This document shows positions 6,428-63,327 of a stretch of 64,000 nt of DNA, one piece after another; the stretch's first letter is position 1, and the number at the start of each line of letters is the position of its first letter. The DNA is taken from assembly GCA_025201365.1 (NCBI GenBank), contig JAIXMF010000001.1, forward strand, positions 1,984,001-2,048,000, read 5' to 3'. The notes under the pieces were generated by a model, which was given only the letters and a program-made list of their open reading frames with translations, had not been told where the DNA came from and made no database searches. A program made the position numbers and the translations under genes. The stretch comes from Syncephalis plumigaleata (Eukaryota > Zoopagomycota > Zoopagomycetes > Zoopagales > Piptocephalidaceae).

Positions 6428-8361
6428 TTAGAAAAGGGACATCGAGTCAAGCTCGGCCAAAGAGAGATCTTTGCCGTTGACTGGACTGAAAGTCGACAAC
6501 TGCGCCAGGGTTACGGGTGTGTTAGCGGGCCAGGTCATCCAGGATGCTTCCGCCGTGTGATTCTCGGCCGGCATAGAAGTCATTAGTAGATGTGGTGTAG
6601 CTTCGGATTTAGCCACTACAGCTGCTAATGCTTGTAGTACATCAGGTTTGAAGCAGCTATCGGTGGGAGTCAACTCGGGATAGCTGGTCGACAAATCGCT
6701 CGTATTGTTCATCGACACTGGTAGAGCAAGTGGAGATGGTGATGACGCCATGGACGATACGGTGAACGTGGCGGTATGTGGTGGTGGCGGTGGCGGTGTA
6801 GGCGTAGGCGAGAGCACACCCGCTCTATCGGCGGCCATCGTAGGTGGCAATGAACCATCACGCGATGCTGCCGTATTAGCATAAGAGTCGACTACTGAGA
6901 CTGCCGCAACGAACGCCGCAGCTTCCATGCTATCGGAGGCATCACCCATAGACAATGGCTGTGCACTAGTTGCATGCTGATGCTGATGATGGTGATGATG
7001 ATGATGATTGAAAAGCATGACCGAGGTGGCACTAGTGGGACTCGTCATGGATGTGGGTGCCGTTGCTAACGTCCGAGGTGGCGTTAACTGAAAAACCGAT
7101 GCCACAGGTGAGTGATTACTATGAGGTGATGCCATCGGCATGGATGGCATGGCAAAGTGTGCAGCCATTACAGCGGCCGCTGCTTCGGGACTAGAGAACG
7201 CGTGGTGTTGAAAGTTGTTCGGCGAGTGGATATGCGAGGCCATTGCCACCGTATGAGCAGGCAGTTGGTATGGATGCGACGACACTTGCTCGCACATTCT
7301 AGCCGCGAGGGTCGAGTGTGTAGCGGCGTGACTACCACCAATACCAGCAGCACCTATCGCGAGACCCGATAAGCGTCGAGATGCATTGCCACGCTGCGTT
7401 TGACGACGTAGTTCAACACTGCCAGATAGTCGGAATGAACGAGCATGTCGTCGAATGTGCTTTTTCAAATCATGAGAGCGTTTGAACGTTCCACCGCAGA
7501 GCTAAAAAAGGTGATCATCATAGTAATAGTTAGCAAGAATTCAAGTTAATTAGTGTGTGTGTGTTATTTGCGCTGCACCAATCATCAATAAACAAGCATT
7601 GGGACTGGCATATACATGTGCGTGTCTGTATGTCTGCGCGTTTGTCTGTATATATGTGTGCGTGCGTCTGTATGTGTACGAGTGTCTGTGTGCCCATTCA
7701 CGTTTACCCTATCAAACTTGCTTGTTTACTTTCTCTCTCCCCTTGCACACACGCACACACACGCACACACACACATACACACAAACAAGCACGTTATTTT
7801 ACAGTGACGTAATAGTCGATGCGACTTTCCATAAGGGCGCATTCGTGTGCATTAAAAATAAAGTGTCCGAATCATCACGCGAATCGTCACACGTGTAAAA
7901 GCTTACCTCACACTCGAATGGTCTAAATGGAACATGCACCTTAAGATGAGAGGTGATGTGATCACGTTTAAGTGTACGTACACCGCACTGAGCCCAACGA
8001 CATTCGAGGCAGCGATTACCCTGTCGAAAACGACCAATGTGCTCGTCGCATAAATGACGATAGAGCGCGGTGGGATTCGGGTACACTTGCTGGCAGTTGT
8101 CCCATTGACAGCGTAGACTTCCCTCTGTCCTGTTGTCGTTGTTGTCGTTGTTGCCGTTGCATTGTTGTTGTTAGCGTCATTGATATTGCTAACTGGCATG
8201 ATCATGGCAGATGTCGTGGTATCGGATGCAGGCGAGTAGTTCTGCGATGGTACCATGGGTGGTTCCGGCACCATGGTATTGGGTGAACCACCACTATCTG
8301 CGACACTAGCTGATGGAAGGCTCGTTTGCCATGAAAAAAAGTCTTGGAATTGTTGATCCAT
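6428..8361 (-). CDS. ZF1: Rim101/PacC-like three-finger C2H2 transcription factor
   Basis: Exons 8361-7907 and 7501-6428, about 509 residues. A Thr/Asn-rich N-terminus (MDQQFQDFFSWQTSLP) precedes fingers at about 85-171: [32 protein letters not shown], and CELCGGTFKRSHDLKKHIRRH split by the phase-0 intron. Finger 2 has the KRDHITSH signature of Rim101/PacC, factors that control the response to ambient pH. The C-terminal region has a run of eight His, Pro/Ala-rich stretches, YPEL (the YPXL form bound by PalA/Rim20 in PacC) and an acidic-hydrophobic end (LAELDSMSLF). The first exon needs one extra base at the GGG at 8123-8121 to join N-terminus to finger 1; exon length (455) plus one restores phase with exon 2. 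A sequence deletion there is likely. Confidence 0.85.
7745..7785. repeat. AC-rich dinucleotide repeat in ZF1 intron
   Basis: A CACACG/CACACA run in the 405-base intron that splits finger 3 of ZF1 (7906-7502). The intron is unusually long for this window because of this and neighbouring GT-rich sequence. Confidence 0.85.
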
Positions 8362-14781: not shown

Positions 14782-17619
14782 TTAATTAACTTCCTGCGAA
14801 GTACTCGATCCACCATGCGAGTCGAGTAATTGCCAATGTGAACTTGTATCGTCTTGTCTTCTTGCTCTGGATGAATTGGTTTTCTCCTCTTGTTTCTGGA
14901 ATAATACACTGATTCTCTTTAGAAGCGTTTCAATCAATGCCTTATGTTCCTCCCTTGTCTTGTAGTCAACTACCGTCTTCCTAACGGATGTGGCTGCTGC
15001 TGCTGTTGAAGATGCACGCGCACCATACGAAGACGCTTCGTTGCCTCGATAGATTTGTGGTTCAGGCATGCTAACCGAGTGGTGTGTAACCGCGGATGCG
15101 GACGAAGAGGCTGGGCGTGGTGCACTCGGCTGCACACCATTATCAGCGACAGATAAACCGCTCAATTGGTCGGCAATATGGTCAACGTTCACATCCACAA
15201 ATCCGCCCTCATCAATATAGTTCATTCGTATGTTGCATGGTTCAGCCTCTGGTTTGCCTGGTAGATTACTACTACTACTGCCACATCTGCTACTACTACC
15301 CTTATTGTTTGACACCGACGAGTAGTATTTACTTGTTTTTTCATGAGAGTTCATGCTCGTCGATTGAACTGAAGCTGATCGTTGTCCGGTGTTGGCCCTT
15401 GGCATTGCTACAGATACTGAGGTTGAAACGACCGAAGCTACTCCCGCTACTGTCGACATTGATTGTAGCGAGGATTTCCTCGTTGGCTGTGGCATGGATG
15501 TGGCATGGCCAGCCTGATATGGAACCTGATAATGCTCTCTTCTTACATCGTTTGACGCCGTTGACGATGCTTGGTGGTACGCGGCTTCACGCTGCGGTAG
15601 TAGCATATGCCGTTGCACTTGCATGGGATGATAGCCCGTAATATTTGGCTGTGGATAAATTGGCATGCGAACCATTGTAGGTGCCGCCTGAGTCATTAAC
15701 GCTTGACCCGGCATAATAATCGGGACAGTTCGTACATTCGGCTCTACCCGTTGTTCACGTGAGATTGAGGAATTTACTCCTTGTGGATTCGCATTGATTT
15801 CTATTCTTCCCATATTCGTAGGTTGAACCATGTTGGACGACGATGTCAAGTAAGTGTTCGTCGTCATATTGACGGGTGCATTGTACATTGGCGTAGTGGT
15901 TTGAGATGCTGCGGTAACTAACAAATTGTTATACACGCTAGCTGGTGATGATGCTTGCGCTTGCGAGTTGCCCAAATCCGGGAATAGCGACTGTCCCGGT
16001 AGTGATGTGGAAGACGACCAGTCGGGCACGTAGCTCTCATTAATAGATCCCGGCGAGACTGCATAGCCATTGATGGTTGGCACGGGCATCGGTGATTTAC
16101 TCGGTGTACGATACGAGATTAGTGCTGGATCGGTCGATTGGCTATTCATAGGAATGGTAGGCGATGGATACAACTCGGATGGAGTGGTGGAGGTTAGCGA
16201 GAGTTTCTCCATTGTAGCCTGATCGATTCGGAATGCACTCTCGGTAGTTGGCGTATTACCCATTGCTAGTTGACTACGATTTTGCAATGCCTCATCGGAA
16301 CACATGTCCAAGTTGACATATTGATTGACCTCTTGTCCTTGTTCCTGATCGATGTTGTCAGTAAGTGAAAGGCAAAACTGCTCCAATAACATCTGATCGT
16401 GTTCCGTCTTGATCGTTTGCGGTAGCTCATTCAATTCCGAGATCATTGGAGCCATTTCATTTAGTAGAGCCATCATAGCTATTCAACGTAGTATAAACAC
16501 CAGAATGAAACCAGTTATTAATAAATTCGAGATTATTCGATGATGATGATGCATGTCATCTAGTATGATGGTTCATTATTTATATATATTTATATATATA
16601 GCCTACCTAGATTATAGTCTGGTTCCATACGCTGTTTCTTAATCGAATCGACGAAATGTTCAATAGGATCGATACTACGCTTGCCCGTGCCACTATTACT
16701 ATTGCCATTATTATTGTTATTATTGTTATTAACAATTTGTGGCATATCAAATGCCGCGACATTGCCCGTGTTCAACGAGGATGTATACATCATGGGGTTA
16801 ATGGTAGGAGCCGTTGTCGCAACAGTTGCAGCTAGATTTGTTGATGCCAACATACCTATAGGCAAGTCATCATCATTTAGTTCCAACGGTTGGTACATTG
16901 GTTCTACAATTATTATAAATGGTTAGGCATCGTTATTCTATATATAGATCTTTACTTTACCTAATGGTGATGACGCATACTGCAATTCAGATGTCGAACT
17001 ACAAGGTGATGCCACGCCCAATTGCGGGAACATCGAATGCGGATAATCCATCGATGCCGTCGTTGTCATCATCGTGGTAGTGTAAGGTCCAGGTGACGGT
17101 GATAGATTAGACGTCATGGTGGATGGTGTCAATGATCCCATAGACGCCGGGGATTGCGGCAAGGTATGAACATTCGGCGCTAATGGAGATGACGCTAATG
17201 TGGCACCAGTAATACTAGCATCAGTAGTAGTAGTGGTAGTAGTACCATCCTGATCCGTTTGATGCACTTTATCATGCTTCTTCAAATCTTGTGGTCGTTT
17301 AAAGAACTTATCACAATGCTGGTTATCGTATAGCGGGTGGTTAGCTGAACAAGTTACTCTAAGCAGCGGGTTACGTAACACTTACTGGGCATTTATAAGG
17401 TGTGAAAGGAATATGACGACGAATATGCGAGGTTATGTGATCACGCTTACTTGTCTTTATAGTGCAGTCGCCCCAATAGCAGTCAAGACATAGGTTGTTG
17501 GTGGCTTTGCGTCCAATATGATCATTGCAAACATGCACAAATAGTTGTTCACCATCTGTAGTGTTAAAGGTACAACCGCGCCACTTGCACTCTAAAACAC
17601 GAGTTACGAATTGGTCCAT
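14782..17619 (-). CDS. ZF2: closest PacC/Rim101 orthologue candidate, three-finger C2H2 factor
   Basis: Exons 17619-17386, 17318-16961, 16903-16607 and 16478-14782 give 861 residues with no frame break. Fingers lie at residues 11-97: [36 protein letters not shown] and [30 protein letters not shown] is the exact PacC finger 3 signature. After an Asn run comes [18 protein letters not shown], like the FF..IK++K..P.YN block downstream of the fingers in PacC/Rim101. Near the C-terminus [20 protein letters not shown] forms an amphipathic helix, as in the PacC tail. No YPXL motif is seen. The start is the first ATG in the open frame, only 10 residues before finger 1, so an upstream coding exon may exist. 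The upstream + strand (17690-18030) is purine-rich. Confidence 0.9.
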
Positions 17620-22442: not shown

Positions 22443-24274
22443 TTAAATTGCGTATGGCTTTTCCATGTGACGTCGTAGATGCCGTTTCAATGCAGGATTA
22501 CGTTTAAACATGCGACCACAAAGCTAGAAAGGACGATTAAATGTTAGCATCTATGATAAGGAGTCTCGTTCAGAGAGAGAGAGAGAGAAAAGCTTACCTT
22601 GCAGGCCAATGGCCAATACGGGATATGTAGGCGAATATGGGAGATGATATGATCCCGCTTACGGGCTGTCACCTCACAGTCATCCCATTCGCAGCGTAGA
22701 TTAAGATGGCCCAAGGCACGACGACCGATGTGTTCCTCGCTAGCGTGGTGCATAAGCAAGGCGGGATCAGGGAATATCTTCGTGCATCCACGCCATTTAC
22801 AATGATAAGTTGGTGCCTCACCGGCCGATGCATCAATAGGAATGGCATGGATATGCGCGATAAAGTTATCCAACGAGCTCGAGTCTTCCAATGACACCGG
22901 GGTCATGGCGGATGCTGATCTAGACTGTAGGGAATCAAGGTTGGAATGTCCAATTTCAACCTGATTACCATACGAGTAAGCCGAGCTATACGTGCTGTGC
23001 GGATTACCAAAGTAGTTGATTGCTCCTTGATTGTCCTGTCTAGTGCCAGTCGATGCGGTTAAAGCATCAAACAACTGACCATGCTGATACGCCCCATTTA
23101 CGTCATGAGAGGACATTTCAGAATTGGAGTAGGACTGCTGACTCGATGTTAGCGTCATAGACATTGGCAGCAGCTGTGGAATTGCGCTGTTGGAGCTCAA
23201 TGAAGACGAAAAAGAGGATGATGATGAAGAGGATGATGATGGCATCATGGTGCTGGTTTTATACTGCATAGGATACAGCGACAATTGAGTATAATCATAA
23301 TGCATCGGTGTCGTTTGCATCGGTAGCGTTTGGTGATAACCATCTGGCATTGAACGATTCAGCTCGTTCATCGATGAGACAATATCAATTTGTGGCAAGC
23401 TAGCCGCCATTGAATTCATCGGCGTAGCATGGCCTTGACTACTCTTCTTCAATAGACTATACGCCTGCATCGGAATAGGAGCAGGAGTAGTGGCAGCGGT
23501 GGTAGGAGGGTGAGGATGAGGATGAGGATGAGGGGACATGAGCTGGTGTTGAGGCGATGTAACAGCTACATTCTTGGTTGGTAGGTGGAAAGATGCAGAG
23601 ACCTGTGGCCAGTGTTGTCCCTCGGCTGTCGTAGTCGCAATCGGGGTCGTATTTTGCGATGGCAATCCATGTAGATTCACGTAATCCGAAGAGTGAGGAT
23701 TAGTTGATGGCATACCGGAGGTATACACAACGGATGTGTTGTGTTTAATCGGCATGGGCGCACTATGCGACATTAATTGTTGTTGCTGTGCGGTAGGTGC
23801 ATACGACAAGGTTGATGTGATTAGTGCAGCCTGAGTGACGGTCAACTCTGTCAATGCATTATCTATATGCGGGGTATCCTTGCATTGGAACGAGAGTACA
23901 CCAGCGTTTGGTGGCGAGTAGGTTGACCGGGCGCTTTGTACTAGTTCCGGAATAGGGGACGAGGATGACAGCGCGCTTGGTAAATCCAAGTAAGTGGCGG
24001 TAGTAATAGTAGGTGTAGCATTATCGTTGGATGATGCCATTGCCATAGCTAATGGAGATCCGTTCTCGGCAGATGCAGGAGTTACTGTGTTCTCTCGGAA
24101 ACTACTCGCCAGTTCAGATATACCGACAATACGATCCGGAATAGATAGATTCGGAATGTTTTTTTGAGTTGTACAAATTGTCGATGAACGAGAAGGGTAT
24201 GAAGGGAATACGGTATTATTCGGGGAAGGTGGAATAGTTATGAAAGAGTGCTGGTTAGCAAAAGTCTCGTCCAT
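22443..24274 (-). CDS. ZF3: Rim101/PacC-like factor with fingers at the extreme C-terminus
   Basis: Exons 24274-22598 and 22523-22443 give 585 residues in frame. About 490 residues of low-complexity Ser/Thr/Pro/Gln/His-rich sequence come first, with a run of alternating His-Pro (PHPHPHPHPP) and a Ser run. Fingers follow at about 492-578: CKWRGC..HHASEEHIGRR, CEWDDC..RKRDHIISHIRLH and CKLCGRMFKRNPALKRHLRRH, the last split by the shared phase-0 intron (22597-22524). Only seven residues (MEKPYAI) follow the last zinc ligand, so the whole C-terminal regulatory part of a PacC protein is absent. The long N-terminal region could be an activation or interaction domain. Spacing inside the finger block is identical to ZF1, ZF2, ZF7 and ZF9. 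Confidence 0.9.
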
Positions 24275-27200: not shown

Positions 27201-28329
27201 ACACACGCGCGCGCATACGCGCTAGTGATTGACGGAATAAACGGTAATTCAACTATGCTAAATTTTGCCATGGTTTATCCGATTAGCCGTATGACGATGT
27301 TTTAGAACCATTTGTTAGTTCAGTACAAGGTGTCCACGAGGAGACGAAACGACAAGAATGATCTTGCGCTAATGGTAGCTTTTGCCTTATCGGCGACCAT
27401 GAAGCCGGCTCTGACAACTATCGTAGATTGCGCGTACAAATATATATTTGTATATTTTCATGTTTATATTACTACACGTTAATTATTATAAAAGGTAAAC
27501 AACAATGTATACGAGTTCATTTACGTTGTAGCGTTACGTATATATCAATCGCTATAGCGAATGCAGTAAATTTGGTCAGAAGATGTCATTGAGTACGCTG
27601 ATAACGCATTGTTTTAGGCGTGGGTTGGCAAGCATCTACAAGTTGAATGCAACCAGTTTGCTAATGATGTCAAGCCCCTTGGTTGCGACACTAGTATACT
27701 AGAACTTTTCGTAACTGTGGTACACACACATTTTCTCTCTCTCTCTCTCTCTTCCTATGTATCACCATCTATCTATCCCCGTCGTGATGTAAGTCTCAAC
27801 CAGCATTGGCGAGTTGCACCTCGGCGTAAACCAAGGTGTACAGCTACCATTCCTACCATTCCTACCATTACCACTAAGGTTTGCTCGGTATAGTTTGCGA
27901 TCTGGCAATCCTTTGGCATCGACACTAAATGAATCGTGTACGTGTAGCAACTGGATGCACATCTACCAACAGTGGTAATAGGGGACTATTTTTAGCCATT
28001 CATGTCATTCTCATACTGGTTATGTCGCCTTGATTTCAGTGCAACGTGAAATGATACCAAGCGACAGCGCTAATAGTCAACAAGTCTTGTCAATCTCGTT
28101 TCTCCCTTTTTTTCACGCTCACTCATTCACTCACTCACTCGCTCGCATTCGCCATTTTGACCTTTTCTTTCTCATTATTACAACTATTGAAAGTAGTCTT
28201 TTGTCGCTTGCATTGGCCGTAAAATTCTACTCTTCTTAAAATATATCTATCATAATCATCTATCTAACACTGCCAACCACCTTTCTTAATATCTTCATAA
28301 AACACTTTTCTTGATATATCCATCAAAAG
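24275..28329. other. 4 kb gene-free divergent spacer between ZF3 (-) and the secreted protein (+)
   Basis: No supported gene. An open stretch at 26664-26999 (-) of 111 codons lacks an early ATG and has no recognisable family. Repeats include (GA)n at 26071-26094, an AC/GC alternating block at 27181-27222 and (CT)n at 27734-27752. The last 250 bases before 28330 are pyrimidine-rich on the + strand (ACTC tetranucleotides near 28120-28142), the usual look of a gene start in this window. Confidence 0.65.
27734..27752. repeat. (CT)n microsatellite
   Basis: Uninterrupted CT units in the spacer upstream of the secreted-protein gene. Confidence 0.85.
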
Positions 28330-29115
28330 ATGAAGCATCAATTATCGCTGACTATTGCCCTGGTGGCTATGGTATCGCTAGCTAATGCTGATCCCCGCCC
28401 AGCTAGCGATTTAATCTCCTTAGCGCTTAACCTATCATCCGAGTGTCGTTCCTACTTGATGTCGAAGATGAAGGATAACGAACTTACTCGTTGTTTACCC
28501 ATTCAATCGCTAATGAAGCTGGCGGGCGATGAACTCCCAGATCCCGAGGATTTCTCCGCCGCCGTCAAGGGTATCTGTCGCGTTCCGCCATGTCGTGACA
28601 CACTCGTTCAAAGCTTACAACGGGACGTGCGAGCCAAGTGTAGCAGCAACATTGAATCAGGTGAATTTGCCGAAACATTCCGTTCAGCCCTGTATGTATT
28701 GGATAACTACACGCCATTAAGAAACGCTACGTGTGTCAAGTCCAAGGATGACGGTCTGTGTGCGGTCGAGACCTATGCTAAAGTCTATCCGTCAGCCAAA
28801 AACACGCCACATAATCAACTATTGGAGAAGATTCCTCAGAGTGATCTTTGCTCCGAATGCAACAAAGGTATGGTAACCGTCCTGTTACAAGCTGACAAGG
28901 CGGAGCCAGGCAAATTACTAAGCGAGTCTACCGCCAAGAACGTATCCGCTCGTATTACCAATACGTGTGGCAAGGACTACTTGGATGGTAAGACGGACAC
29001 CGTTTCCGGCGATCAAGTTCATACGGCATCCACTGGCACGACGAGCCTAGTCTATTCGTCGTACACCATTGCACTATCATTAATGTCTGTCGTTTTAATG
29101 TCCACTTTACTTTAG
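28330..29115 (+). CDS. Predicted secreted, GPI-anchored cysteine-rich surface protein
   Basis: A single exon of 261 residues. Residues 1-20 are a typical signal peptide (KHQLSLTIALVAMVSLANA after Met) with a likely cut after ANA. The mature part has ten Cys, a helical repeat-like pattern (SECRSYLMSKMKDNELTRCL, GICRVPPCRDTL, LCSECNKGMV) and four N-glycosylation sequons (NLS, NYT, NAT, NVS). The last 20 residues are hydrophobic (TIALSLMSVVLMSTLL) after a small-residue stretch, as expected for GPI attachment. The cysteine pattern recalls fungal DUF7729-type surface proteins, but I am not certain. The role is unknown; cell wall or plasma membrane surface is inferred. It is convergent with the DDHD phospholipase (158 bases between stops). 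Confidence 0.8.
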   Translation: MKHQLSLTIALVAMVSLANADPRPASDLISLALNLSSECRSYLMSKMKDNELTRCLPIQSLMKLAGDELPDPEDFSAAVKGICRVPPCRDTLVQSLQRDVRAKCSSNIESGEFAETFRSALYVLDNYTPLRNATCVKSKDDGLCAVETYAKVYPSAKNTPHNQLLEKIPQSDLCSECNKGMVTVLLQADKAEPGKLLSESTAKNVSARITNTCGKDYLDGKTDTVSGDQVHTASTGTTSLVYSSYTIALSLMSVVLMSTLL

Positions 29116-32624: not shown

Positions 32625-34310
32625 TTACGGATGATTGTGGCTATAGTGCACCATATTGTGTGCTGCAGTTAGCGAAGCCACCTGCCATGTCGACGAGTCC
32701 AATGCCTGATCTGTAATACCGAAAAGCAACGGTAGTTCCGGGGTCATGTGGTCGGCCGTCAATGAACTTAGCATTGCTTTGGAGGTGAGCAAGTCATTAT
32801 TATGCTCGGCCCAGAGGTCATTGACATCACTGTGATACTGATGTTGATATTGATGATGCTGACTACCGCCAATATAAGGTGTTGCGGCCAATGAGTAAGT
32901 AGGGCTCGTTGGTGACAATGGCTGCTGCTGCTGCTGCTGCTGCTGTGATAATGGTGGTGATAATTGTAGTCCCAGGCTAAGAGGACTGGTGCTACCATTT
33001 GTACTGCCGTGTGGAGCATGCATACCCGAGAGTAACTCATTGGTGAGTAGCGTGTGTGGATCAGCAGTAGATGACACGCCAAGTAGCATGTTCGTATCGA
33101 GTGCGGCGTACATGTCAGGCACCGGTGGCAATGAGTTTAGCATGAATGTGCTATGATCATGAACAGGAATATCGGAAAGATCTACCACACCTAATTATTA
33201 TTATAATAATAGACATCCACAATACGTTCCACAATGTATATGTTAGTGCTACAGCATTCATTATTATTATTATTATTGTTATGGTACTTACCCGTGGAGA
33301 TATTACGATGATGACCGCTACCATTATGCTGATGAGAATGATGATGAGAATGATGATGATGATGATGATGAGGACTGGTAGACATGTTCAATGATGCCTC
33401 AAAGGAGGTTAGACTCTGGAATGGCGTGGTATCTTGTCCACCTGAAAGGGTCGGGCTTAGAATAGCCGGGATCAGTGTGGGACTACCGATTAACGGGCTC
33501 ATTAGAGTTGGTGACGTGGATGGCAGCATGTTGATGGTGGCGGGAGTAGTGGTGGCACTTTCCGTATCTTCACCGGCAGTAGTATCAATCGATGTCAATG
33601 CTGACGACACATTTGAAGGACGAGCATGTGGGTGTTTCTTCTTGAAATGAGCGGTCAAATCAGGTCGACGTGTAAAGTGAACGTGACACAACTAATTCAT
33701 TTTTGGACAACAGGACACAATAGAACAGTACAAATACGAATGGTTAATTCACCAATCAAATACATACACACGCACACACACACAAATATACACATACGTA
33801 TACACATATACATAGAAATACCCTCACACATAGGATGATCATTACTGCATTGTTTTGGACGCGTCATCGTTATCGTCCATCAATAGCAATAGCAATATTC
33901 CCTAGTGTACCCTTCACTGCCCTTCTCGCTCTCATGCTCTCACTCACTCTCATGCTCTTACTTACCTCACAGGCGAATTCCTTCCAACCTAGTTCGCGGG
34001 CCAAATGACCACGGATATGAGCTTCGGTGCTATAGGAACCAGGGCGGAATCGTTTAGCGCAGGTGCCCCAATGACACTCTACGGTAATATTGGGATTGGT
34101 AGTGGTGGCACGGTAGTAGAGGCCGTGATCTTTACGCCAATGATCAAGTAGCACTTTACCCGCGTGATGTGGGTTGAAATTGTTGCCATGTCGATGTTGA
34201 GGTTGCTGCTGCTGTTGGTCGATGGTAAACGAGCAGCCCTCCCATTTACAGCGTAGGGATGATTGACCTCGTTGCACCGTTCGGTTACGTGGTGTAGTTG
34301 CTTGCTTCAT
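32625..34310 (-). CDS. ZF4: diverged Rim101/PacC-like C2H2 factor
   Basis: Exons 34310-33966, 33691-33292 and 33190-32625 give 436 residues in frame. Fingers lie at about 21-135: CKWEGC with a Gln/His-rich insert before the His ligands (LLDHWRKDH), CHWGTCAKRF..HIRGHL, and CELCHVHFTRRPDLTAHFKKKH, the last split by the shared phase-0 intron. Finger 2 has lost KRDHITSH, so DNA contacts should differ from ZF1/2/3/7/9. The C-terminal part is low-complexity, with a His/Ser run and an eight-Gln run, then a hydrophobic-acidic stretch after DLSDIPVHD that could be an activation segment. Adjacent to the other diverged members ZF5 and ZF6, same strand. Confidence 0.85.
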
Positions 34311-36293: not shown

Positions 36294-37842
36294 TTATTCT
36301 GGCACGCTAAAGATCGACTCGATGGAATCAATGTTCAAGTCGAGCCATGGATGATCTATGGATATATCACTTGAAGGTAGTGTCAATGGTCCGGATGAGT
36401 GTGACGACTCATTGCTATGTTGTTGTTGTTGCTGCTGTTGCTGTTGTTGCTGTTGTTGTTCGCTTGATCCAAATCCCGTATAGGTCATGGTATCTGTGAT
36501 GTCATAGTTGGCGGAGATTGAATTAGCATTTGTTTTTAGACAATAATAAATTTATTTTTATTTTTATTTTTAACTACATAGAATAAATCCATTCTTTTTC
36601 ACTCGTGCTTACCTCTCACGTTATCTTGTGCTGACCAACCGATAAATGGTTGATTTTGCCCTGTTAATACGCACGACCTCATGGCTGCTGCATTTGAAGC
36701 ATGACTTGCCGAATTAGAGGCAGATGAACATCCTTTGGATTCGGCTACATTAGCATAATATGCAAGGTTGTTATGGTTAGTTAACAGTAACAGTAATAGT
36801 AACAGTAATAGTAATAGTAATAGTAATGAAAATATTACCTTGCTTGTTAAGGTCATCATGAACGGATAGCGAACAGGCCAATGAATTATCTTGACTTATA
36901 CCATCCATGATAGAGGCCTGCGAGTATAGGAATAGGTTAAACAGATCATCGGCAAGATTGGGTACTTGGTTGAACGAGCCAATATCCGGAGCAGTAGTGT
37001 TTTCCAACGAGACAAGTAGTGGCTCATCGAATTGGGGCGCCACTCCACTCGTTGCTTCCTGGTAGAATGACTGGAATACACTATTGACCGAGGGTTCTGG
37101 CACGCTTGGCTGCATCTCGATTCCTACTAGTGGTACCGATACTGGTTGTGGTTGTGGCTGTGGCACCACCGTTTCAGCTTGTGGTAGTGTGCACGACACG
37201 GGCATCGAGTCTGATATCGATATTATTAATGGCATATTCAATGGTCCAGTTGGTGATGAAGATGACGAAGAAGAAGAAGAAGATACCATGGCAAATTCGC
37301 TAGGATCACGGGGTTCAACTCGTCCAGCGCCATTCAAAACTGCAAGCGAATGTTTGCACTTCTTCTGATGACGAAGCATTTCAGAGCGTCGTGGTGTCCT
37401 CATATTGCAACCCTAAAGACGAAGGAGGAGGGAGAACAATGTAATATGTTATAAGTGAGTAATTTGATTTTTTGTAGGTAAACACAGATTGACTCATATC
37501 TACGCAATACATTTTACAAGCACAAGTGCATTACACACACAATCTTACCGGATTTTCGCAGGCAAACGGTTTCAAATTGATACGCTTGCAAATCTTACGC
37601 CATAAATGCGATTTTATACAAAACTTCTTCTTCGTGCTATACTGGCAGTCGGGATAGGAACACCGATAGATATCGATTGATTGTTGCTCGCTATGGCTTA
37701 ATAGATGCTCCACGAATAATGTCACCGCTTCCTTTTGAGACGCAGTAGGATACGAGCATGTCTCCACACAGCCGGGATAGGGACAGGGTAGTACGCAAAA
37801 GCTTGAGCTAGAGCTTGAGCTTGAACTAAAGGCTAGATCCAT
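36294..37842 (-). CDS. ZF5: strongly diverged Rim101/PacC-like C2H2 factor
   Basis: Exons 37842-37549, 37412-36839, 36744-36613 and 36493-36294 give 399 residues in frame. A nine-Ser run precedes three modified fingers at about 20-119: CPYPGC..LFVEHLLSH, CSYPDCQYSTKKKFCIKSH, and CENPGCNMRTPRRSEMLRHQKKCKH. The third has a wider Cys spacing and a Cys near its last ligand; the shared phase-0 intron falls in the same place. KRDHITSH is gone. The rest is Gln/Pro/Ser-rich with a run of about 13 Gln, and it ends in an acidic-hydrophobic tail (LDLNIDSIESIFSVPE) like an activation domain. Intron 2 (36838-36745) is largely AGTAAC/AGTAAT repeats on the + strand. Whether all three fingers still bind zinc is uncertain. 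Confidence 0.82.
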
Positions 37843-40658: not shown

Positions 40659-42826
40659 TTATAGTTGGGCGATGACAGGGTTGAAGTCAGTTGAAGTGAA
40701 TGTGGTTGCGGCATTATCATTGATGCTGCTGTTGTAGTTGTTGCTATTGAAGTTGACGTTGTTGCAATTGTTGTTGTTGTTGATATTCGAAACGGATGGA
40801 AGGGCGGCTGGTGCAGTTACCGTGGTTGTAATGGGATGTAGCATATTCGCCATTTTACGTGCACTACCGGACATGATGGGGAAGTTGACGTGCGCCAATG
40901 GACTGTAGGCTGGATCGCACTTGCCGTACATTACAGGTGATGGTAGGTTGTGATGAGAGAAGATCGGGTGGTCGAAACTATGAGCGGAAACAGCGCTACC
41001 TAGACTTCTAACGCTGACGGCATCACTGTCATCAGAGTCGGAAGTAGCGAGTTTCCCCTCCAACAATGGCAACCAGTTGGAGGCGTTGTCAAAAGAGTTG
41101 TCGGCCTGTACGAGTTCGGAGAAACTGGCACTGCCACTCATTGCCAAGGGGCGTGGCAATGAAGATGGTTGATAATGTTGAATCGTTGGACTTTCTGACT
41201 TGTAGTTTGAGGAATCTATTATGAATCAATTGAATAGATACAAAAGAAGCACAATGTAATGATTAGTTAAATGTAAAGTAACTCATACATACACACAGCC
41301 AAATATACATATACATATACATAGAATATATTGTACATGAAAAGTCCACTCAATAGGAACGCGTGTAATCCGCATGCATTACCTACACTCTCTCATAATA
41401 CACATATATACACGCTCAAGTATTCACATCAAAAGGTAAAGACACGTACGGAAATGAAAGCGGCCGTGTCCTAGCTAGCGGGACAGACGAGCATACTTGC
41501 CTTGCGGATTGACCAATATATGAGCCATTGGATCCGTTGGACAAGGTACTGGTGCACTAACGGGCGTGTCGTTCAAGTTGTGATAGTGGAATGTCAATGG
41601 TCCCGGATGATTCACTAATTGCTGATAGCCATGCGTGGGCTGTTGACTAATCGATGAAAAGTCGGGCGACATGGAAAAATGACCGGCTGCCTCCATCATA
41701 CTCATTAACGAGTTGCGATGGTCACCGAGACCGTTCTGCACGAGTGGTGCACCCATGGGTGAAGCAGCCGATACGGCCGTGAAGGCATAATCCGACAATG
41801 CTGGTGGAGGAGCAATGGGACCAGAGAATGTAGGTGGTGCCGAATGTGTGAACGGATATTCCGGCATCGTGTCGCAAGATTGTGGTGGTGGTGGTGGTGG
41901 TGACATCATACCGTTGAATTCTTCTTCAGGTGCGCTCAATCGACGTTCGCGTTCCTCCTTGGTGCGAGAAGCAGCCGTGGCGCGGGAGGCACGTGGACGA
42001 AGCGGAGTGGCATCAGGGTGCTTACGCGCCAAATGCTTCTTTTGGTCGCCGCGGTGTTTGAATCGTTCGTCGCAATGCTAAATTGGCAATGAAAACAATT
42101 CACGTGTATTAGTATTACTATTTCTTAGTGTACATGCGCGTGTATATGATGTATGTATAGAAAGAGAAGAGAAAGAGAAAAGAGAAAGCACATGTTGATG
42201 ATGATGATGGAAAAGAAACGGATGCACTTACTACCGAGAATGCACCCTACCAATGTGATCACACCTACGTATACGTATACGTAGATAGAGAGAGAGAGAG
42301 AGAGAGAGAGACTCGGTATTTACCATAATGCTATAGCAATTCATATACCAGCTCCAAAAAAGACAAGCGAAAGAAAGATGAAACTAAGTGGACAAAAACT
42401 TACCTCGCAGCCAAATGGACGCCAATCCAAGTGTTTCTTCATGTGCGACTTGAGCCGGAACAGACTGGGGCGCACTTCGTCACAGCCAACCCAACGACAT
42501 GTAAGCCCTCCAGTGTTTGGTTCGGCTGAGCCCACCGCCTGCAAACGAGACGATAGATGCTCCGTTTCGATGTGTCGCCAGATGGCATCACCAGTGGGAA
42601 AGGCGTGCTCGCATAGCATACAATCCTCCCAGCGGCAGAAGAATGGACCAAGCAAACGAGCGTTATTGCCGTTACGACTCGTGGTGATACTGCCACGACG
42701 AATGGGGCCGGTGATACGACCGTTGATGGCGGGTGAAGTAGCGGGAGATAACGAGGGACTGCCGTGGAACGGCAACATGTTACCTTCAGCTACGGAGGAT
42801 AGAGAGAAGTGAGCGAAATTGTCCAT
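40659..42826 (-). CDS. ZF6: diverged Rim101/PacC-like C2H2 factor
   Basis: Exons 42826-42404, 42077-41501 and 41215-40659 give 518 residues in frame. A Ser/Pro-rich N-terminus leads to fingers at about 64-161: CRWEDCMLCEHAFPTGDAIW with the His pair in IWRHIETEH, CRWVGCDEVRPSLFRLKSHMKKH, and CEHCDERFKHRGDQKKHLARKH split by the shared phase-0 intron. Finger 1 carries an extra Cys and the fingers 1-2 linker is longer than in ZF1. After finger 3 comes a basic segment (TKEERERRL), a Pro run, and later Ser-rich acidic sequence (ATSDSDDSDAVSVRSLGS) and an Asn-rich tail. The second intron (41500-41216) has a GC donor; the GT alternative four bases on would change frame and lose the long last exon. 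Confidence 0.85.
42265..42284. repeat. 20-base perfect palindrome in ZF6 intron 1
   Basis: CTACGTATACGTATACGTAG equals its own reverse complement. It sits in the intron that splits finger 3 and is followed directly by a GA run (42286-42310). Confidence 0.75.
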
Positions 42827-51104: not shown

Positions 51105-52268
51105 ATGAATAGCGAAATGTCTGGTGCAATGATGCAAAAGCCATTCGATCCAGCTACGGACTCGGTCGATTCCATCCTAAACAACGTGCTCTACCTGTGC
51201 GCTGTCGGCTACTTTCCAACACAATTGGGTGGATTAGCACCAACAGTAGAAACTAGTGGTAGTGCTAGCACTGCCAATACTGCCAGTACTGCTACTATTG
51301 CTAATGACAATCTCCATCCCGTTGGACTTGTTTCACCGAATGACTCGCCACTTTTAGCGCAGCAACATCTCCATTATTACTCGCATCCACACCAATCGTT
51401 TGACATGCAACATCGAGGCTCGTGCGAGCAATTAACGCCCGAACTATCGCCGGTCATATCACACTCGTCTATCTCGCTATCATCGGCATCATCACCCTTG
51501 GCTGTCGATCCCGCCTATATTAGCATGCCAGTAGGTAAACCCATTATGAATGGTATGCTACCCAGTCCGCAATCACCGATTTGCATGGAGCAGTCGTGCT
51601 ATCCGATGGAACACTTTATGCCGCAATCAGTCGAGATGAAACCCTCGCTTAGCTTCGAGACTGTATCGTCAACTGCCTCTTCGAGATCATCTTCCTCTTC
51701 AAGATTATTGCCATCATTACCATCCTCCTCTTCTTCCTCTTCTTCCTCTTCCTCTTCTAGTGGATATAGCATGTCAAAATCCACACTAACCTCGCCACAT
51801 CGCTGTCTATGGGATGGTTGTGGTCGCGAATTTCCCGTGCAAACTGATCTGCTTCGCCATTTGAGCGAGATCACGTAGGTCGTAGTCTACGCGGCAACCT
51901 GTGTCTCACCTGTCGTTGGCCGGGGTGCTCACGTGTGGCGAAGAAGCGTGATCACATGGTGTCCCACCTAAAGAGCCACGTCCCATTCTGGCCGTTTACT
52001 TGCAAGGTGAGAATCATTTTTACTCTATTATTTCATTCGAAATGAGCAATGCCCTATATCCATACGTGTGCACACACACACACACAAAATGCATATCATT
52101 GTTGTTGGCATCAATCATTTACGGTCATTCACCATTAGCATGACATATACACTAACGCAGATATGCATTTTTTTGTTATTTATTTAGTATTGCGGTAATC
52201 GCTTTAAGCACGCCACCGGATTAAATCGTCATATTAACCGTCATGAAATGCGTGGAGAAACGCAATAA
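51105..52268 (+). CDS. ZF7: Rim101/PacC-like factor with fingers at the extreme C-terminus
   Basis: Exons 51105-52006 and 52188-52268, about 327 residues. About 230 residues of Ser/Thr/Ala/Pro-rich sequence with a long Ser run come first. Fingers follow at about 234-320: CLWDGC..LLRHLSEDH, CRWPGC..KKRDHMVSHLKSH and CKYCGNRFKHATGLNRHINRH split by the shared phase-0 intron. Only seven residues (EMRGETQ) follow. In the sequence as given, finger 1 runs into a stop after RHLSEI: one base appears to be missing near 51869 (E-D-H-V-G-R in ZF9 and relatives). Exon length 902 plus one restores phase with exon 2. Like ZF3 it has no C-terminal regulatory region. The + strand upstream is pyrimidine-rich. 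Confidence 0.82.
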
Positions 52269-55200
52269 GCAAGAGATAGCAGCGCCAAATCGTGTACATA
52301 CTGGTGCTGTTGTAGTCAAGCGTGAAGAGAGAGAGAGGGCAAATTGATTGCCTTATTTTTGTAGATATTGATTATGTACAACATCACCAGTATTCCGTAT
52401 TTCTTCTGTTTTAAGTTCGTGTTTTGTTCGTTCATTGTCGCGCGTTCCCATTCGTATTTCCGTTTGTCGTTCCTTCCTCTTCCTCTTCCTCTTCTTCTTT
52501 CATCGAACTACTGCTACTATTTACACCTATTTCTATCTGTTCATTCAAATCACATTCCCTTAAAAACGGATGTATACATTTTGGCGCATACTCTAATGCT
52601 TTATTTGTCCATTTCATTCATTCATTCATTCGTCCATTCGTCCGTCCTTTCTTTGTTTTACTGCCGCAACTACACACAATCATACACAACTCTTCCATCA
52701 CATGATCACATGATCGTCACGCCATTAATGCCTCTCCTTACTTTCCTCTCGATACTTTGTTGGCCTCCTTCAATCCTATCCCATTGCCTCCGCTGGTCGG
52801 ATGGCCCTTCTATTGATCGAGGTTAACCTTCACGCTTACCATCCATACATGGCTGCTTCTCAAGATTAGTAGTTATTATTACTACGACACTTTACTACTC
52901 GACTTTTCGAGTATGTAAGAGTGTGTAGGTGTATAACTAATGATTTGCAAAAGCAGCCATGTATATCATGATTTCATCTAACGAAAGCTATATAGTCACC
53001 GATACATCCTATCGGTATATTCTAACGAATCTTTTTTTGTTTTTCTTTGCTTTTATTTGTGCACTCACATTATTGCCGTGTTATTTCTGTACACACATTC
53101 TAACAACTTAACAACTTAACAACATCCTCAACAGTATGCGATCTAACCGCATAATCTATTTAATTCGCTTTATAGTCTGCTAAAACAAAGACTCGGCGAC
53201 AATGTATTTTTTCCACTTCTTCATTCTTTTTTTAATTACTACTATATGTTCTTTCAATATTTGTTCACGATCATTCATCTTAAAAAAGAAAAGAACAACA
53301 TGAGTATATATCTGTTTCTTGTTTCTATAAAAAAAACCATTTGTTTATTCTCCAATGTTGTTACTGAAAGACATGTTCCAAATCCTTTGATCCATCTTTA
53401 TTTTTTTCACTGCTACACTGCTACACTACCACATCAGCACTTTACATCTATTACGCTCTACTTGTCGAATAACTAGACTAGCCAACCGGCCACCTCTTCT
53501 AATACGTTGCATTCTTTTAACATCATTAATCAAAGCATAGGATGCTACTTGCTACCATATGTATGCAACATTCCCCTCCTATACCAGCGTGTTTCTCTCC
53601 TCTTTCCTTCAATGACCTCCAATGCATTCCAAATACTATTTGTTGTCCTATTGTACAATTCCTATCTATCCATCCAACATACATACATACATACGTCCCT
53701 TTCCTCTTGATTGTTTACAATAGCTTTTCTGTCGCTATGAACTATCATACTAAACGCATACCTTTATGCTATTTATTATTCTATAAAGATATAAACGAGT
53801 TACTGGCATCAAATCCATTCTTGTTCATCAGTCTAATTTGTTGACATGTTTAGTGAATTCACCTTGATAATGCATAATTTATTACTAGTAGTAATTATTA
53901 ACTTAATCAATGCATGAATCTATAGGTTACAGCCATTATATAATGAGATTATCTCTCGATCCAATTGAGATTCTATCTAATATATCCCAATCATTATTCA
54001 ATTGCTTTAGTCTCCGTCATTGCTCGGTGTTATTTTGTATATCTGCACGCACGGCCATTGAATTATGACATATTTCCATATTCCGCGTCGTATGCTCCGT
54101 GCTCTACGTGTTCACATATCTACATTTGCATAATTTTTTAATAAACTGACATTGAAATCGATTTGTTTCCTCATTGGTTGACTCCCATTGACTATCATCT
54201 GATCATACACATGCTACACACGTACACATACACGCGTAAATCAGTCAATATCAATTGCAACGACACTATCACTATCATATGACTGATAGTAGCATGAACA
54301 TTTATCGATAGAATGCTAATTAGCACTCAATTAAACATCTCGATCATTCATCGCTATGTTCTATGCTTGTATACTCTAGTTGGAAATATACGACATTATT
54401 CACTTGATAAACACTTGTCTTGCATATTGTTTACCAATAGGAATACATTCAATGCCATTGATCTATTTCTTTCTTGTTATTAAATAGTGATGAGTATCTA
54501 CATTACTATGATAATTTGATTGATAATCGACTGTTATAATATACGCAAAAGCAACGAGTACATTAATACAGACCGAACATCTGACATACACGAGCAGTTG
54601 TAACTTCTTTTAGATTCGTGCACACGTGTATATGTACGTGCGTGTGTGTATACGTGTGTATACGTGTGTGTGCGCGTGAGAGTAACTGTGCACTTGTGTA
54701 TCTTTCTTTCTGTTTTTTCTACTTCTTCGACGGTCGAGCCTACTTTCATCGATGTATTGTACTATTTTAGAATCTATTCCACGATTTGCTCAACTAGTTT
54801 GCTTAATTGCTTAATTGCTTACTGACCTACACTCATTCATTCGCACTTGTGCTTGTACACGTATCATCATTGTTACCACCATTATTGCTATTGCTATTGT
54901 CGCCGCCAACACCATCCATGAAGGCGCATATGTCGTTTTAAGCACACGACCATTGAATTGATCCTTTCACCCACCTGTGTGCACAACAAGTTCTTGTCCA
55001 TGGATTGTCTATTCATTGATAACAGGTTCAATCTTTACACTTTTCCTTCTTTATTTCTCTCGCTTCCACTATTTTAGTCTCTCTCTCTCTCTCTCTCTGT
55101 CTCACTTTCTCTCTTTACATACCTACCTACCTACATATCTCCATATCTACCTACCTAAAACACTACCACCTCACTTTAACTATTGGAAGTTTTCTTCTTC

Positions 55201-56421: not shown

Positions 56422-59150
56422 ATGGATAGCTCTGTTGCCGGTCCAGGTATGCTCTCGCTATCACTTCGACCACTTAATGAAGATAGCCAACAGTTAGCTT
56501 GTCGTTGGCGCGGATGTCAGGATGCAAATCGACTATTCTGTCCACAGTCACTCTATGATCATCTTTGTCAGGCTCACGCGAGCAGTTCCTATGCAGCATT
56601 GGGACTGGCCCAGGATCTATCGACTGGTGGCAGTAGTGGTAGTGCCACGGATGCTGATGGCAAATCCAGTGAAATCGGTGAGGGTGTCGCCTGTTTATGG
56701 GAGGGATGCCAATATCGATGCAAGAGTAAGAAACGACACCACATGAATAGTCATTTGCGTAGTCATGTGCCATTATCACCATTCCAGTGTCATGTAAGTA
56801 ATGCGGTTATAGTACCATTCATTATAGTCTATTCACTAAGACAATACTCGTATTTTCTCTTATTGCTACTACACTATCATTGTTGTTGTTATTGTTGTTG
56901 TTGTCGTGCCATCAATTATAGATTTGTGCCGTGACATTCAAATGGAAATCAGATCTTACCAAGCATCTTCGTCGTCAGCATGATATCACAGGACCAGCTG
57001 CTAATCAGGCAATGTCAGCCGATGACAATACACTCGAGACAGGCTCGATCATGTCGGATGAAATGGAATTCAGCTCGATGGCTAATATGGGTATGCATGA
57101 TGACGGACAACTTAATGCGCTACTAAATCAACAGTGTAAGTGTAGCAAATGGTAACAATACTGTAACACAATCAAAAATAGAATGGAATTCTATATAAAT
57201 CATACCATACAATGATGAACTAATATATATATATATATATATATATATACGCATATATACATATATTGTAGTGCAAGCAAATATGGCTGCTGCAGTTGCC
57301 GCTAGCAATGGAGGTATCGGTATCAATGGACATGGCAATGAAATAGACGCTGCACAAATGCAGGCCAATCGAGAACGCTCCATTTCTGTATTACAACACT
57401 TTATTCAAGTTGTCCGTGAAGGTCGACTACAACCACATTCTAACGATCCTGGTAAGCATTGACTTGCTCATCTATCTATCTATCTATCTATCTATTATTT
57501 ATTTATTTACTATTATCGTTATTATTATTATTAGCATTGGCAGCATGGAGTGAAGAATTATCCAAGTTAGATCTTGCTACGATTAAACCATTGCTAGAGA
57601 GTAATCCAGAAGCACTTCAAATGATTGAAAGTTTCCTAGATGTAATGAACGTAGAATCGGGTAAGTAAGCTGAATTTTTCGCCATTTTACTTTGCTTAGT
57701 GCGCCTCATCTTTATTAATGTATTTACGTATGATTCGGGTATTAGGCGGTGTAACTGTGAAAACCGAAATGTCCACATCGCCACAAGCTGTAACATCCAT
57801 CGACAATATGGCATTCCTAGCGCAGAACAGCATCAGTCCACCCATCTCCACTGATGGTAAAAGTATCGCATCGTCACCTGCTGTTATGGCGGTGGATGCA
57901 TTCAACGGAGGTGTACCGCTAACGGCTCCACTCGGCTCTATGGGCGGTCTATTCGCGATGGAACAGTCGCCATCCATGTACACGGGCAATAATGCTGGTA
58001 TAGCCGCGTATCCCAATGTTACCTCGCCGAACGATCCAGCTGGTATTGCTAATGCTGCTGCCGCAGTAGCTGCCATGACGAGCAGTCCACACGCCGGCAT
58101 ATTCTCACCACCCGTTCAAGCCACACCGTTGTCATTACTTAGTGCACATCAGAATCCGCAACAGGCGTCGCCATCACCGCACATGCCTTCAATGTCACCC
58201 TCGATCGATGAAAGTTTACTATTCGGTAGTTCACTTGACAGCTCGTCGTTTGTATACTCGCCACCGGCCAAGATCGAGGAGGAACCCGTCACATCACCGG
58301 GTGGTACATCGATTGAGGCGCAAATGGCCGCTGCATCACAACTCGATGTAGCTCAGTATAACTGGCTAATGGCACAAGAGGTAAACTAAAACAACTAACA
58401 TCAATTGCTATTGTTGCTATTACATTATTAACGAATATATGATACATTTATGCTTACTATTAGTATCCCATGGGTATTGAATCGGCGATGGGTGTGCAGC
58501 CCAGTGAGATATTCGGTGCCATGTCACCCACCAACACATTAGCGCAGCAAATAGCCGCCAATCCCCAGGCGCAAATGTTCAACTGGACCAGCCAGCTACG
58601 ACAGACGAGCAGCGCGGATGAACGCTCACTACGCCGTGTACAATCGACACCGATGCTGGTGGAGCACGCTCAACAACGACCGACCATCCGTTCCCCGGGA
58701 TCACCATCAATGCTACGACCGATGCGAAGTACAGAGTTACGCGCACGAATGGTGTCGCCATCGCGTAGCACCGAACGACCCGCACGACCCGTGCCACATC
58801 CAAGTAAAACTAGCCTGCTACGCGCTTCACAATCGGTTGACGCGCTACGTATGCATGCGGTGGCCGCGGCAGCAGTAGCAGCGGCTCAATCCAATCCCAC
58901 GATACCTGAACACGGTGGTGCACCCGATTATAACGCCGCCAATGTCGCTAATGTCGGCAATATGGGCATGGTCGGAGTTAGCAGCCCCACTAGTCCTGCG
59001 ATGCAGATGGATAAACGTGCCAATGGACGCGGTCGACTCGACACTGTACTACGTCGTATGCAACAATTGACACTGCGTAATCCGACGGGTGTCACGGGAC
59101 AAGTCAAGTTCAAACGATCACTAGAGCGCATTCGTTGGCAAGGACAATAG
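56422..59150 (+). CDS. ZF8: diverged Rim101/PacC-like C2H2 factor
   Basis: Six exons (56422-56793, 56922-57135, 57272-57451, 57535-57660, 57746-58380, 58464-59150) give 737 residues in frame. Fingers lie at about 27-144: CRWRGCQDANRLFCPQSLYD with HLCQAH, a longer Gly/Ser linker, CLWEGCQYRCKSKKRHHMNSH, and CHICAVTFKWKSDLTKHLRRQH split by the shared phase-0 intron. KRHHMNSH is a changed form of KRDHITSH. The large C-terminal part (about 590 residues) has a helical segment (SISVLQHFIQVVREGRL), another (LSKLDLATIKPLLES), long Ala/Ser/Pro-rich stretches and a basic C-terminus (RGRLDTVLRRMQQLTLRNP to KFKRSLERIRWQGQ). It has the most introns of the nine. Introns 2 and 3 hold (TA)n and (ATCT)n repeats. 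Confidence 0.88.
57223..57249. repeat. (TA)n microsatellite in ZF8 intron 2
   Basis: About 13 TA units within the intron 57136-57271. Confidence 0.9.
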
Positions 59151-60384: not shown

Positions 60385-60392
60385 CTACATAA

Positions 60393-61065: not shown

Positions 61066-63327
61066 TTAGTAATGATGACCTGGATGATGTGCCGTAATCG
61101 GGGAAGATGATGTCGATGATGCTGATGAGTAATTGTTTGCTGTACTAGTAGTAGAAGCAATAACAGCAGTAGCACCAGCAGTAGTAGTAGTAGTACTTGT
61201 TGGTTCATAGGACATCATAGTAGCGTGCTTATGATTCACACTTAACAATTGATCCGAAGCACTAGTAGACCAGTGTCGTGTATGAGTTGGTTCATAAGGA
61301 TGTGGTGAGGTTATTGATGGCGATGACGATGAAGGCAATGGTGGAGGTGGTGGTAGTGAAGGGACAAATCCATGTAAAGAAGGACGATGATGAAGCATGG
61401 ATTGTGGACATGAACTGGATCGTTGATGTTGAGATGATGTAGATGTAGTAGTAGTATTACTATTATTACTAGTAGCTGCTGTATTAGTAGACATTGTTAC
61501 TGAGCCATTGTTGCTATTCAGTCCAGGTGATCTAGTCGATGTATGATATGGATGAAAGTGATGATGTGGATGATGATGGTGATGATGATGATGATGATGA
61601 TGCGAATGGTATGAAGGGTGTGGAGATGGTAAGGTAACAGTAGGTGGTGGATACTGTGCAGATACAGGAGTGGGTACAGGAGCAGGTAGTGTATTAGGCT
61701 GACTGTTATGACTGATAGACATCAATGAAGATTGATTAGTACTCGTATTAGTAATACTATGATGACGTTGATGTTGTTGACTCATGGTCGATATGGAATG
61801 TGGACTTGTTGGCATAGCTGTAGCAGATAAAGGAGCCATCATACTGGATAGTTCAATACCTAAATGACTACTTTCTAACTCGAGACGTTCCATGTGTTTA
61901 CGTTCGTGCTTCTTTAGATCCTGCCGACGTTTGTAGCGTTTATCGCATACCTAAATAATAAATGAATAAATAAACATATATAGATATATGTGTAGATCAC
62001 TTACTCGACATCTTAATGGTGTCAATGGTACATGAACACGTAAATGAGATGTGATGTGATCACGCTTATTGGTAGTCGTTTGACAGTCCTCCCAGCAACA
62101 AGTTAAACAAAGATTACCGCGCGCATGTCGTCCCACATGATCATCACATAAATGTTGGTATAGCAATTCGGGTTCATAAAACTTGCGTGTGCATTGTTTC
62201 CAACGACAATGGTAAAGACGTGCTCGTTTACGTTGAGAATCATTGCTACTACCGCTATTGCTATTACTACCAGTAATAGCAGTATCATTGTTATTCCTAA
62301 TACTACCACTGCTACTACTAATCGGTGAATTCATACTATTCGCATCAAGTAGGAGAGTGGGTGCGCTACCGTGATGATTATGATAGAATGAATGCTGTCT
62401 GCTGCCTATAGGTGAATTGGCAGATGAAGCGGAAAGTGGTTGCGGTGATGGATGAGCCGATGGAAAAGGTAACGATAAATGATGTTGATGTTGATGATGT
62501 GGATGCGGATGTGCAGCAGCAGTAATAGAAGTAGCACTTGTATGCGTAGTAGCAGGTAGAATATGCACGCTTAGACTTGGTGGCATAGGAAGTACTGGTG
62601 ATGCGGATGCAGTACGATTAGGTGTACTATGATAGCTGAACGTATTACTATTACTACTATCTGCCGATGGATGATGTGGTTCTAGTAAACTAGACAAGGA
62701 AGGTAAAGGTGTATTATGTTGTGCGGATGATGATGATGATGATGATGCGGGTTGTTGTTGTTGTTGATGATGCGGCATTGTCGTAAAATAAGCATCTGTC
62801 TGAATAGACAATGTTGGTGCTGCAGTAGATGATGTAGATGATGATGGCGGTGGTGTAGGTGTAGGAGGTGTATGAGGTGTAGTAGGACTAGTCACCATAG
62901 ACATGCTTGTATTTGATAGATTGTTATAGTAGTAATGGCTATTACTGTTATTGTGGTTAGTCATCGTAGATATAGTCATAGGTGGGGAGGCAGAGCCCAT
63001 GGGTCGATCTAAAGGGCTTGGCAATGGCAATGACGACGAAGATGATGACGACGACAATGTCGAGAACACGGTCTGACTATGATTACGACGATGGTTGTGA
63101 TAATATTGATAATCGGTAGCCGTTGATATGAGACCAGGTTTATACTGCTGATGACACTCAGAATTGGGCTGTTGTAGCTGTTGAGTAGCAGTACTATTAC
63201 TAGTAGCAGTGGCTGTAAACGATTGATGAGGTGGCGATAATTGTCGCTTATACGGCGATGGTAAGCACTTCGAGAACGCAAGTTCTGAGACTTGCGGTTC
63301 AACAATATGTAAAAGCGACGACGACAT
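61066..63327 (-). CDS. ZF9: Rim101/PacC-like three-finger C2H2 transcription factor
   Basis: Exons 63327-62005 and 61950-61066 give 735 residues in frame. About 370 residues rich in Ser/Thr/Pro/His/Gln come first. The canonical finger block lies at about 374-460: [37 protein letters not shown] and [29 protein letters not shown] is very close to the PacC finger 3 signature (RPQDLKKH). The shared phase-0 intron (62004-61951) splits finger 3. The C-terminal 275 residues are low-complexity, with a ten-His run, Pro runs and many Ser/Thr, and no YPXL motif. The two large flanking regions are largely trinucleotide repeats at the DNA level and may vary in length between strains. Confidence 0.9.

Follow-up and report, generated by a model that had tools for sequence, protein, structure and literature searches.

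A cluster of PacC-type zinc-finger genes and divergent relatives in Syncephalis plumigaleata

Transcription factors of the PacC/Rim101 family are usually encoded by one or a few genes, with activity set by pH-triggered cleavage, and old linked arrays of transcription-factor paralogues are familiar from the Hox and iroquois complexes. Here we analyse 64,000 nucleotides of the fungus Syncephalis plumigaleata (Zoopagomycota, Zoopagales) (the window; positions 1984001–2048000 of contig JAIXMF010000001.1, hereafter C1, which spans 3,046,566 bp of the 32.6 Mb, 383-contig assembly GCA_025201365.1), in which nine three-finger C2H2 genes, g1–g9, lie between window positions 6428 and 63327; g7 and g8 are encoded on the plus strand and the other seven, g1–g6 and g9, on the minus strand. 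For Aspergillus nidulans PacC, the available text of PMC4832277 describes a full-length form closed by its C-terminal part, which pH signalling converts through two-step proteolysis into a short nuclear form. Gene g2 resembles the PacC/Rim101 of other fungi in its three fingers, recognition residues, a box behind the fingers and a C-terminal tail, and g9 has the same finger code. Unlike in other fungi, six genes with PacC-type fingers (including g10, a tenth gene just beyond the window) and four divergent relatives stand together here, with the box mostly not found and finger-3 residues changed.

Among described systems, the nearest expansion is in Fusarium oxysporum, in which truncated pacC paralogues lie on lineage-specific chromosomes; the accessible part of PMC6994591 also points to previous work in which truncated PacC acted regardless of pH. 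The two cases share an expanded family with extra copies lacking the regulatory C-terminus. In F. oxysporum, however, three truncated copies sit amid transposable elements, in two human-pathogenic strains and away from the full-length gene (same portion of PMC6994591), whereas the Syncephalis array appears old, holds the canonical gene, has orthologues across Syncephalis and carries altered finger codes. Expansion of the PacC family was already known from Fusarium; no PacC array or similar cluster was among the literature matches listed, in a search outside which most subscription journals lie. As in the Hox and iroquois complexes, old paralogous regulators stand side by side with long spacers. 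Unlike those complexes, the Syncephalis array comes without evidence for shared enhancers, collinearity or a developmental role.

We lean towards the view that a PacC gene was duplicated locally, and long ago, to give the nine window genes, which share one intron site; for most copies we predict a lack of pH-triggered processing and shifted DNA sites. In each of the nine, fingers 1 and 2 are encoded in one exon and finger 3 in the next; the two exons flank a phase-0 intron that falls one residue short of the second cysteine in finger 3 (the knuckle intron). This intron, 54 to 405 bp long with GT–AG ends, splits the two residues between the finger-3 cysteines in eight of the genes; the exception, g5, has a knuckle with two extra residues. 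The identical position of the intron in all nine genes supports common descent. The same knuckle intron is found in a dispersed relative on contig C68, and in metagenome relatives of g1 and g8 the reading runs into it. At seven other C2H2 loci of the same genome the finger run was read in one open frame, and in a C2H2 gene on contig C318 the frame stops elsewhere in the finger than in the array genes.

The fingers themselves point to PacC for part of the array. The earlier note on this DNA had reported nine three-finger C2H2 genes here, which we confirm, and five of these score 138–93 bits, well above what chance would give, on an outside profile of 27 PacC-type proteins (24 from named fungi and 3 unnamed metagenome proteins): g2 138, g9 133, g1 123, g3 101 and g7 93 (with an X at its frame break), to which g10 adds 113. 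By their finger sequences, g1, g2, g3, g7 and g9 are clearly PacC-type. The divergent set scores 59 (g8), 42 (g6), 38 (the C68 gene), 27 (g4) and 13 bits (g5), and two genes outside the array reach 68 (C318) and 83 bits. The latter is a multi-finger C2H2 gene at C1:1939030–1939644 (loci L005 and L015), 51 kb upstream of g1; it is matched by a profile of the nine genes, lacks the KRDH motif described below and is not an array member, and from its finger row we take it to be TFIIIA-like. On this score g4, g5, g6 and g8 would not count as PacC. Their place in the array follows from position and intron, and PacC ancestry rests on these two and, for g8, also on a weak box. The note had also described the same finger block in all nine genes; pairwise identity of the blocks is in fact 24–54%.

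The low scores lend some weight to a mixed origin, in which PacC descent would hold only for g1, g2, g3, g7, g9, g10 and perhaps g8, and g4, g5, g6 and the C68 gene would belong to an older C2H2 family or families sharing the region. All three array genes of that group score below the C318 gene; g6 groups with its orthologues and the C68 gene on a long branch of the finger tree; and the identity between g6 and the C68 gene, 44%, exceeds that of either one to PacC. Yet g4, g5, g6 and the C68 gene share the knuckle intron of the other members, in contrast to the seven one-frame loci and the C318 gene. A Trp two residues after the first Cys of fingers 1 and 2 is likewise present in g1–g4 and g6–g10, with Tyr in both fingers of g5, although this does not decide PacC membership because the C318 gene has it too. 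We consider the mixed origin a serious possibility, albeit one we would not expect to hold. Both g4 (32625–34310; 281-aa (amino acid) model with an insert in finger 1; knuckle intron 33965–33692) and g6 (40659–42826; 341-aa model; knuckle intron 42403–42078) likely have a further exon each, which would be 33194–32625 in g4; the last exon of g6 is 41225–40659. The most divergent member, g5 (36777–37842; 309 aa; knuckle intron 37548–37413), ends fingers 2 and 3 in Cys in place of His.

A tree of the finger blocks (49 rows, 89 columns) places g2 inside canonical PacC, in a fork of 28 rows (support 85/93) that consists of 26 of the 27 reference rows, g2 and g10. In one tree, a PacC-type metagenome protein (P0133) also fell outside that fork. 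Beyond the fork the tree has little resolution and long branches meet. One clade of all array members is neither supported nor rejected (approximately unbiased P value (p-AU) 0.172, or 0.090 after removal of the longest rows, namely g4, g5, C68 and the outgroup); a clade of all members except g2 and g10 gives 0.431. A local origin is thus neither established nor contradicted by the tree, as 89 columns are too few to resolve the array members.

Genome-wide searches bear on the same question. With the g9 fingers as query (expectation value (E) up to 0.01), 14 matches were obtained. Of these, seven are array members on C1 and two are second copies from contig C66; the other five all lack KRDH. 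That search does not reach g4–g6, whose own searches (E up to 0.1) gave 12 (g6), 2 (g5) and 4 (g4) matches; outside the array and C66 these found only the C68 gene and its copy on C191 (C68:106021 and C191:12501, locus L052), a g6 relative of about 800 aa whose 44% identity to g6 is over the finger block. The proposal of serial local duplication therefore stands in so far as there is a local cluster dominated by PacC-type fingers, with 9 of the 14 matches in the array or its haplotype copies and with a common intron; PacC descent of every member is the part not shown.

The array also extends further than had been described. All nine genes do lie in one 57 kb stretch, as the note had it, but g10 follows at C1:2057144–2057755, 9.8 kb past g9 and with its three fingers uninterrupted in a single open frame, so that the array runs past the window and covers 67 kb, with at least two non-member genes in between. 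The nine-gene profile picked up no further members over 50 kb on the upstream side or over the 20 kb that follow locus L011. The non-members inside the array are a DUF7729 protein (28315–29115, plus strand) and DDHD-domain frames (30764–29274, minus strand) that are likely one gene.

Recognition by C2H2 fingers is generally ascribed to helix positions −1, 2, 3 and 6, and we read the finger codes on this basis. The codes of fingers 2 and 3 are KDHS/RQDK in g2 and g9, as in 27 of 27 reference PacC rows. Finger 2 is kept as KDHS and finger 3 changed in g1 (RHDK), g3 (RPAR), g7 (HTGR) and g10 (HSDR), and both codes are missing from g4, g5, g6 and g8. The changed codes of two divergent genes are themselves fixed: KHHS/WSDK in all three rows of g8 and SFRS/HGDK in all seven of g6, including Thamnocephalis and metagenome relatives, which favours altered function over decay. 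The motif KRDHITSH, attributed earlier to most second fingers, is exact in three of nine (g1, g2 and g9); the shorter KRDH is found in five, with KRDHIISH in g3 and KRDHMVSH in g7, and is absent from g4, g5, g6 and g8. The finger block lies at the C-terminus in g3 (22443–24274; 585 aa, fingers at the extreme end; knuckle intron 22597–22524) and g7, at the centre in g9 (61066–63327; 735 aa; knuckle intron 62004–61951) and towards the N-terminus in g2, g4, g5, g6 and g8. These different positions show that the flanks of the array genes were rebuilt.

By sequence, g2 (14782–17619; 861 aa in four exons; knuckle intron 17385–17319) is an ordinary PacC/Rim101. Behind its fingers it has the box KRs.d..ddFF.D.KKRr..P.Y (E 3.4e-7, with controls at 2.4e-5 in Umbelopsis and 0.0042 in Coemansia), followed by a C-terminal helix that by eye resembles those of other PacC proteins. 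Behind the fingers it has an orthologue in S. fuscata (52% over 66% of g2) and another in S. pseudoplumigaleata (55% over 51%); neither record includes the finger exons. No PacC box was found in the models of g1, g3, g4, g5, g6, g9 and g10, those of g4 and g6 being without the last exon and g7 being left out. The box profile also missed g8 (56422–59150; 735 aa in six exons; knuckle intron 56794–56921), but there the stretch after the fingers aligns without gaps to the g2 box (score 69; none of 15 shuffles exceeded 49), with a weak hhalign match (E 0.0026, probability 11.5%). In our reading, g2 and g8 also share a phase-1 intron directly after the box stretch, one residue apart in the alignment.

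The duplications are old rather than recent: no blastn similarity is left between the units, and orthologues of g6 and g8 exist beyond S. plumigaleata, in one case in another genus. A blastn self-comparison (E 1e-8, low-complexity filter on) found no DNA similarity between units; the only repeat it showed was a weak, imperfect inverted one at window positions 52845–52964 (124 bp, 76%), directly downstream of g7. Within the Zoopagales g6 is conserved. Orthologues of g6, itself identical over 136 residues to the S. plumigaleata protein BDF22DRAFT_664893, were found in S. pseudoplumigaleata (79% over the whole length), S. fuscata (83% over 87%) and T. sphaerospora (49%); g8 has an orthologue in S. 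fuscata (77.5% over its full length) and a metagenome relative (44%).

The linkage of g2, g6 and g8 is probably conserved in S. fuscata, since their three orthologues (P0002, P0123 and P0130) each lie on a contig of 541,153 bp, which we read as one contig; two of the three are named BDF19DRAFT_413888 and BDF19DRAFT_413890. The protein searches with g2 and with g1, g3, g8 and g9 scored only candidates sharing most words with the query, and the g2 search covers the best 120 of 325.

Taken together, g2–g6 are under constraint. Contig C66 is a second copy of window positions 15900–44135, 1–3% different from C1, and is probably a second haplotype, as are further second-copy stretches seen on C65, C191 and C217; the available part of PMC10386755 mentions a diploid ancestral stage for the phylum. 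Over the codons compared between C1 and C66 (489, 586, 282, 306 and 342 for g2 to g6), there are 5, 7, 0, 0 and 5 synonymous differences (17 over 1382 sites) and 1, 7, 0, 3 and 0 nonsynonymous differences (11 over 4633 sites). All five frames are intact in both haplotypes, with coding indel bases in multiples of three, and the models of g2, g3, g4, g5, g6, g8 and g9 are free of internal stops.

Frame breaks in the other two genes raise the question of whether the divergent copies are decaying remnants, left by an old expansion, that retain little function. In g1 (6428–8361; fingers 1 and 2 8110–7934, knuckle intron 7906–7502, finger 3 and C-terminal exon 7501–6428), the N-terminus, with its ATG at 8361, is out of frame with the fingers; the break precedes the fingers, and we modelled the gene from the finger exon onward only. 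In g7 (51105–52268; knuckle intron 52007–52187), finger 1 is divided between two reading frames of the assembly. No second copy of either stretch is present in the assembly, so real decay and assembly error both fit, and the strong divergence of g4 and g5 would also be in keeping with decay. Against decay, full-length conservation is seen for g6 in S. pseudoplumigaleata and for g8 in S. fuscata, g2–g6 have intact frames in two haplotypes with a low overall nonsynonymous rate, and the g1 relative P0135 has a matching N-terminus in frame with its fingers. P0135 and a second relative, P0137, are 91% and 77% identical to g1 over fingers 1 and 2, and the S. plumigaleata protein BDF22DRAFT_607973 is identical to the g1 fingers over 88 residues. 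Decay of the divergent copies as a group seems to us very improbable.

A further alternative is that all members are pH-pathway factors that split an ambient-pH or lipid-stress response. The full PacC finger code of g9 and g2 fits such a partition, as do the calpain and BRO1 genes in the genome. A calpain-family (Peptidase_C2) search found 11 matches, of which some contain stops or are near-identical copies, and the locus at C13:140383 has two Calpain_III stretches, as in PalB. The calpain loci are C13:140055–140790, C13:734424, C223:7442, C223:1944648 and places on C35, C362, C113, C118 and C218; C13 and C223 alone hold at least four, and some of those elsewhere have internal stops. A BRO1 protein with a V domain is encoded at one locus, with a second-haplotype copy, but is not assignable to PalA because its best match is ALIX and it also matches Bro1 structures. 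The window contains 40 sites matching GCCARG, given in the consulted portion of PMC6738131 as the motif of Neurospora crassa PAC-3, where 28.6 would be expected; a count this high arose in 4 of 200 simulations. Ten fall within the stretches scanned upstream of the genes, with four at g2 and two apiece at g3, g4 and g7, which would accord with the pacC autoregulation that the seen part of PMC4832277 describes in A. nidulans.

Other features speak against a pH partition. No GCCARG was found in the scanned stretches upstream of g1, g5, g6, g8 and g9 (1.5 kb each, 673 bp for g9), no box was detected outside g2 (and weakly g8) among the models searched, the finger codes of g6 and g8 diverged and were then fixed, and the sole lipid link noticed is the DDHD gene inside the array. 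We judge it unlikely that all members act in pH signalling.

Several observations weigh against descent of the whole array from a PacC gene with loss of processing and shifted sites. On the PacC profile, g5 is at best borderline (E 0.033 for the joined model; 15 bits and E 0.0099 for its first finger exon alone), and g4, g6 and g8, below the C318 gene, are not distinctive. In the finger tree, g1, g3 with g7, g8, g9, g4, g5 and the g6 group fall outside the canonical fork. The tenth gene, g10, is without the knuckle intron. The finger codes follow a general rule and are not a measured specificity; the uniform code of the reference PacC rows is partly an effect of choice, as these were picked from database matches by likeness to g2 or the array paralogues, and the site of g9, which keeps the full canonical code, need not differ. 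Conserved linkage rests on three genes, because the search with g1, g3, g8 and g9, among the matches listed, gave only g8 from S. fuscata (and only g1 from S. plumigaleata itself). Taken alone, g4 (no synonymous and no nonsynonymous differences) and g5 (0 and 3) show no constraint. The PalA-binding consensus is YPx[LI]; it is absent from g2 and its relatives P0002 and P0003, a weak test given its absence from 9 of 24 other PacC proteins, and occurs once in g1. Finally, PalH had no match in the genome, although the controls were equally silent, making this uninformative.

If local duplication of a PacC gene did produce the array long ago, g2 would keep the ordinary role, with the pH signal removing its C-terminal tail and the short form binding GCCARG-type sites. 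Copies without box and tail would be produced from the start as short, active-like proteins, each under its own promoter; that they may be active without processing is suggested by analogy with the A. nidulans short form and the truncated F. oxysporum copies. The kept finger 2 would read a shared half-site and the changed finger 3 would shift the other half, such that the copies would regulate overlapping but distinct gene sets. Syncephalis is a genus of ubiquitous mycoparasites, according to a title cited in the available part of PMC10386755, and as a guess the targets may lie in development or mycoparasitic growth. A bolder version, which we offer as a doubtful speculation, is an ancient linked PacC complex of the Zoopagales: one pH-regulated ancestor would have been kept, and its neighbours, with finger 2 fixed, finger 3 re-coded and proteolysis escaped, would have been kept together to direct parasitic development.

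The array may thus represent a natural experiment in which a signalling-gated regulator was turned into several independent ones, with copies that seem to lack box and tail and with codes that changed and then froze where orthologues are known. Its predictions could be checked by in vitro binding, without growing a host-dependent fungus, and it gives a starting point for understanding gene regulation in a little-studied mycoparasite group.

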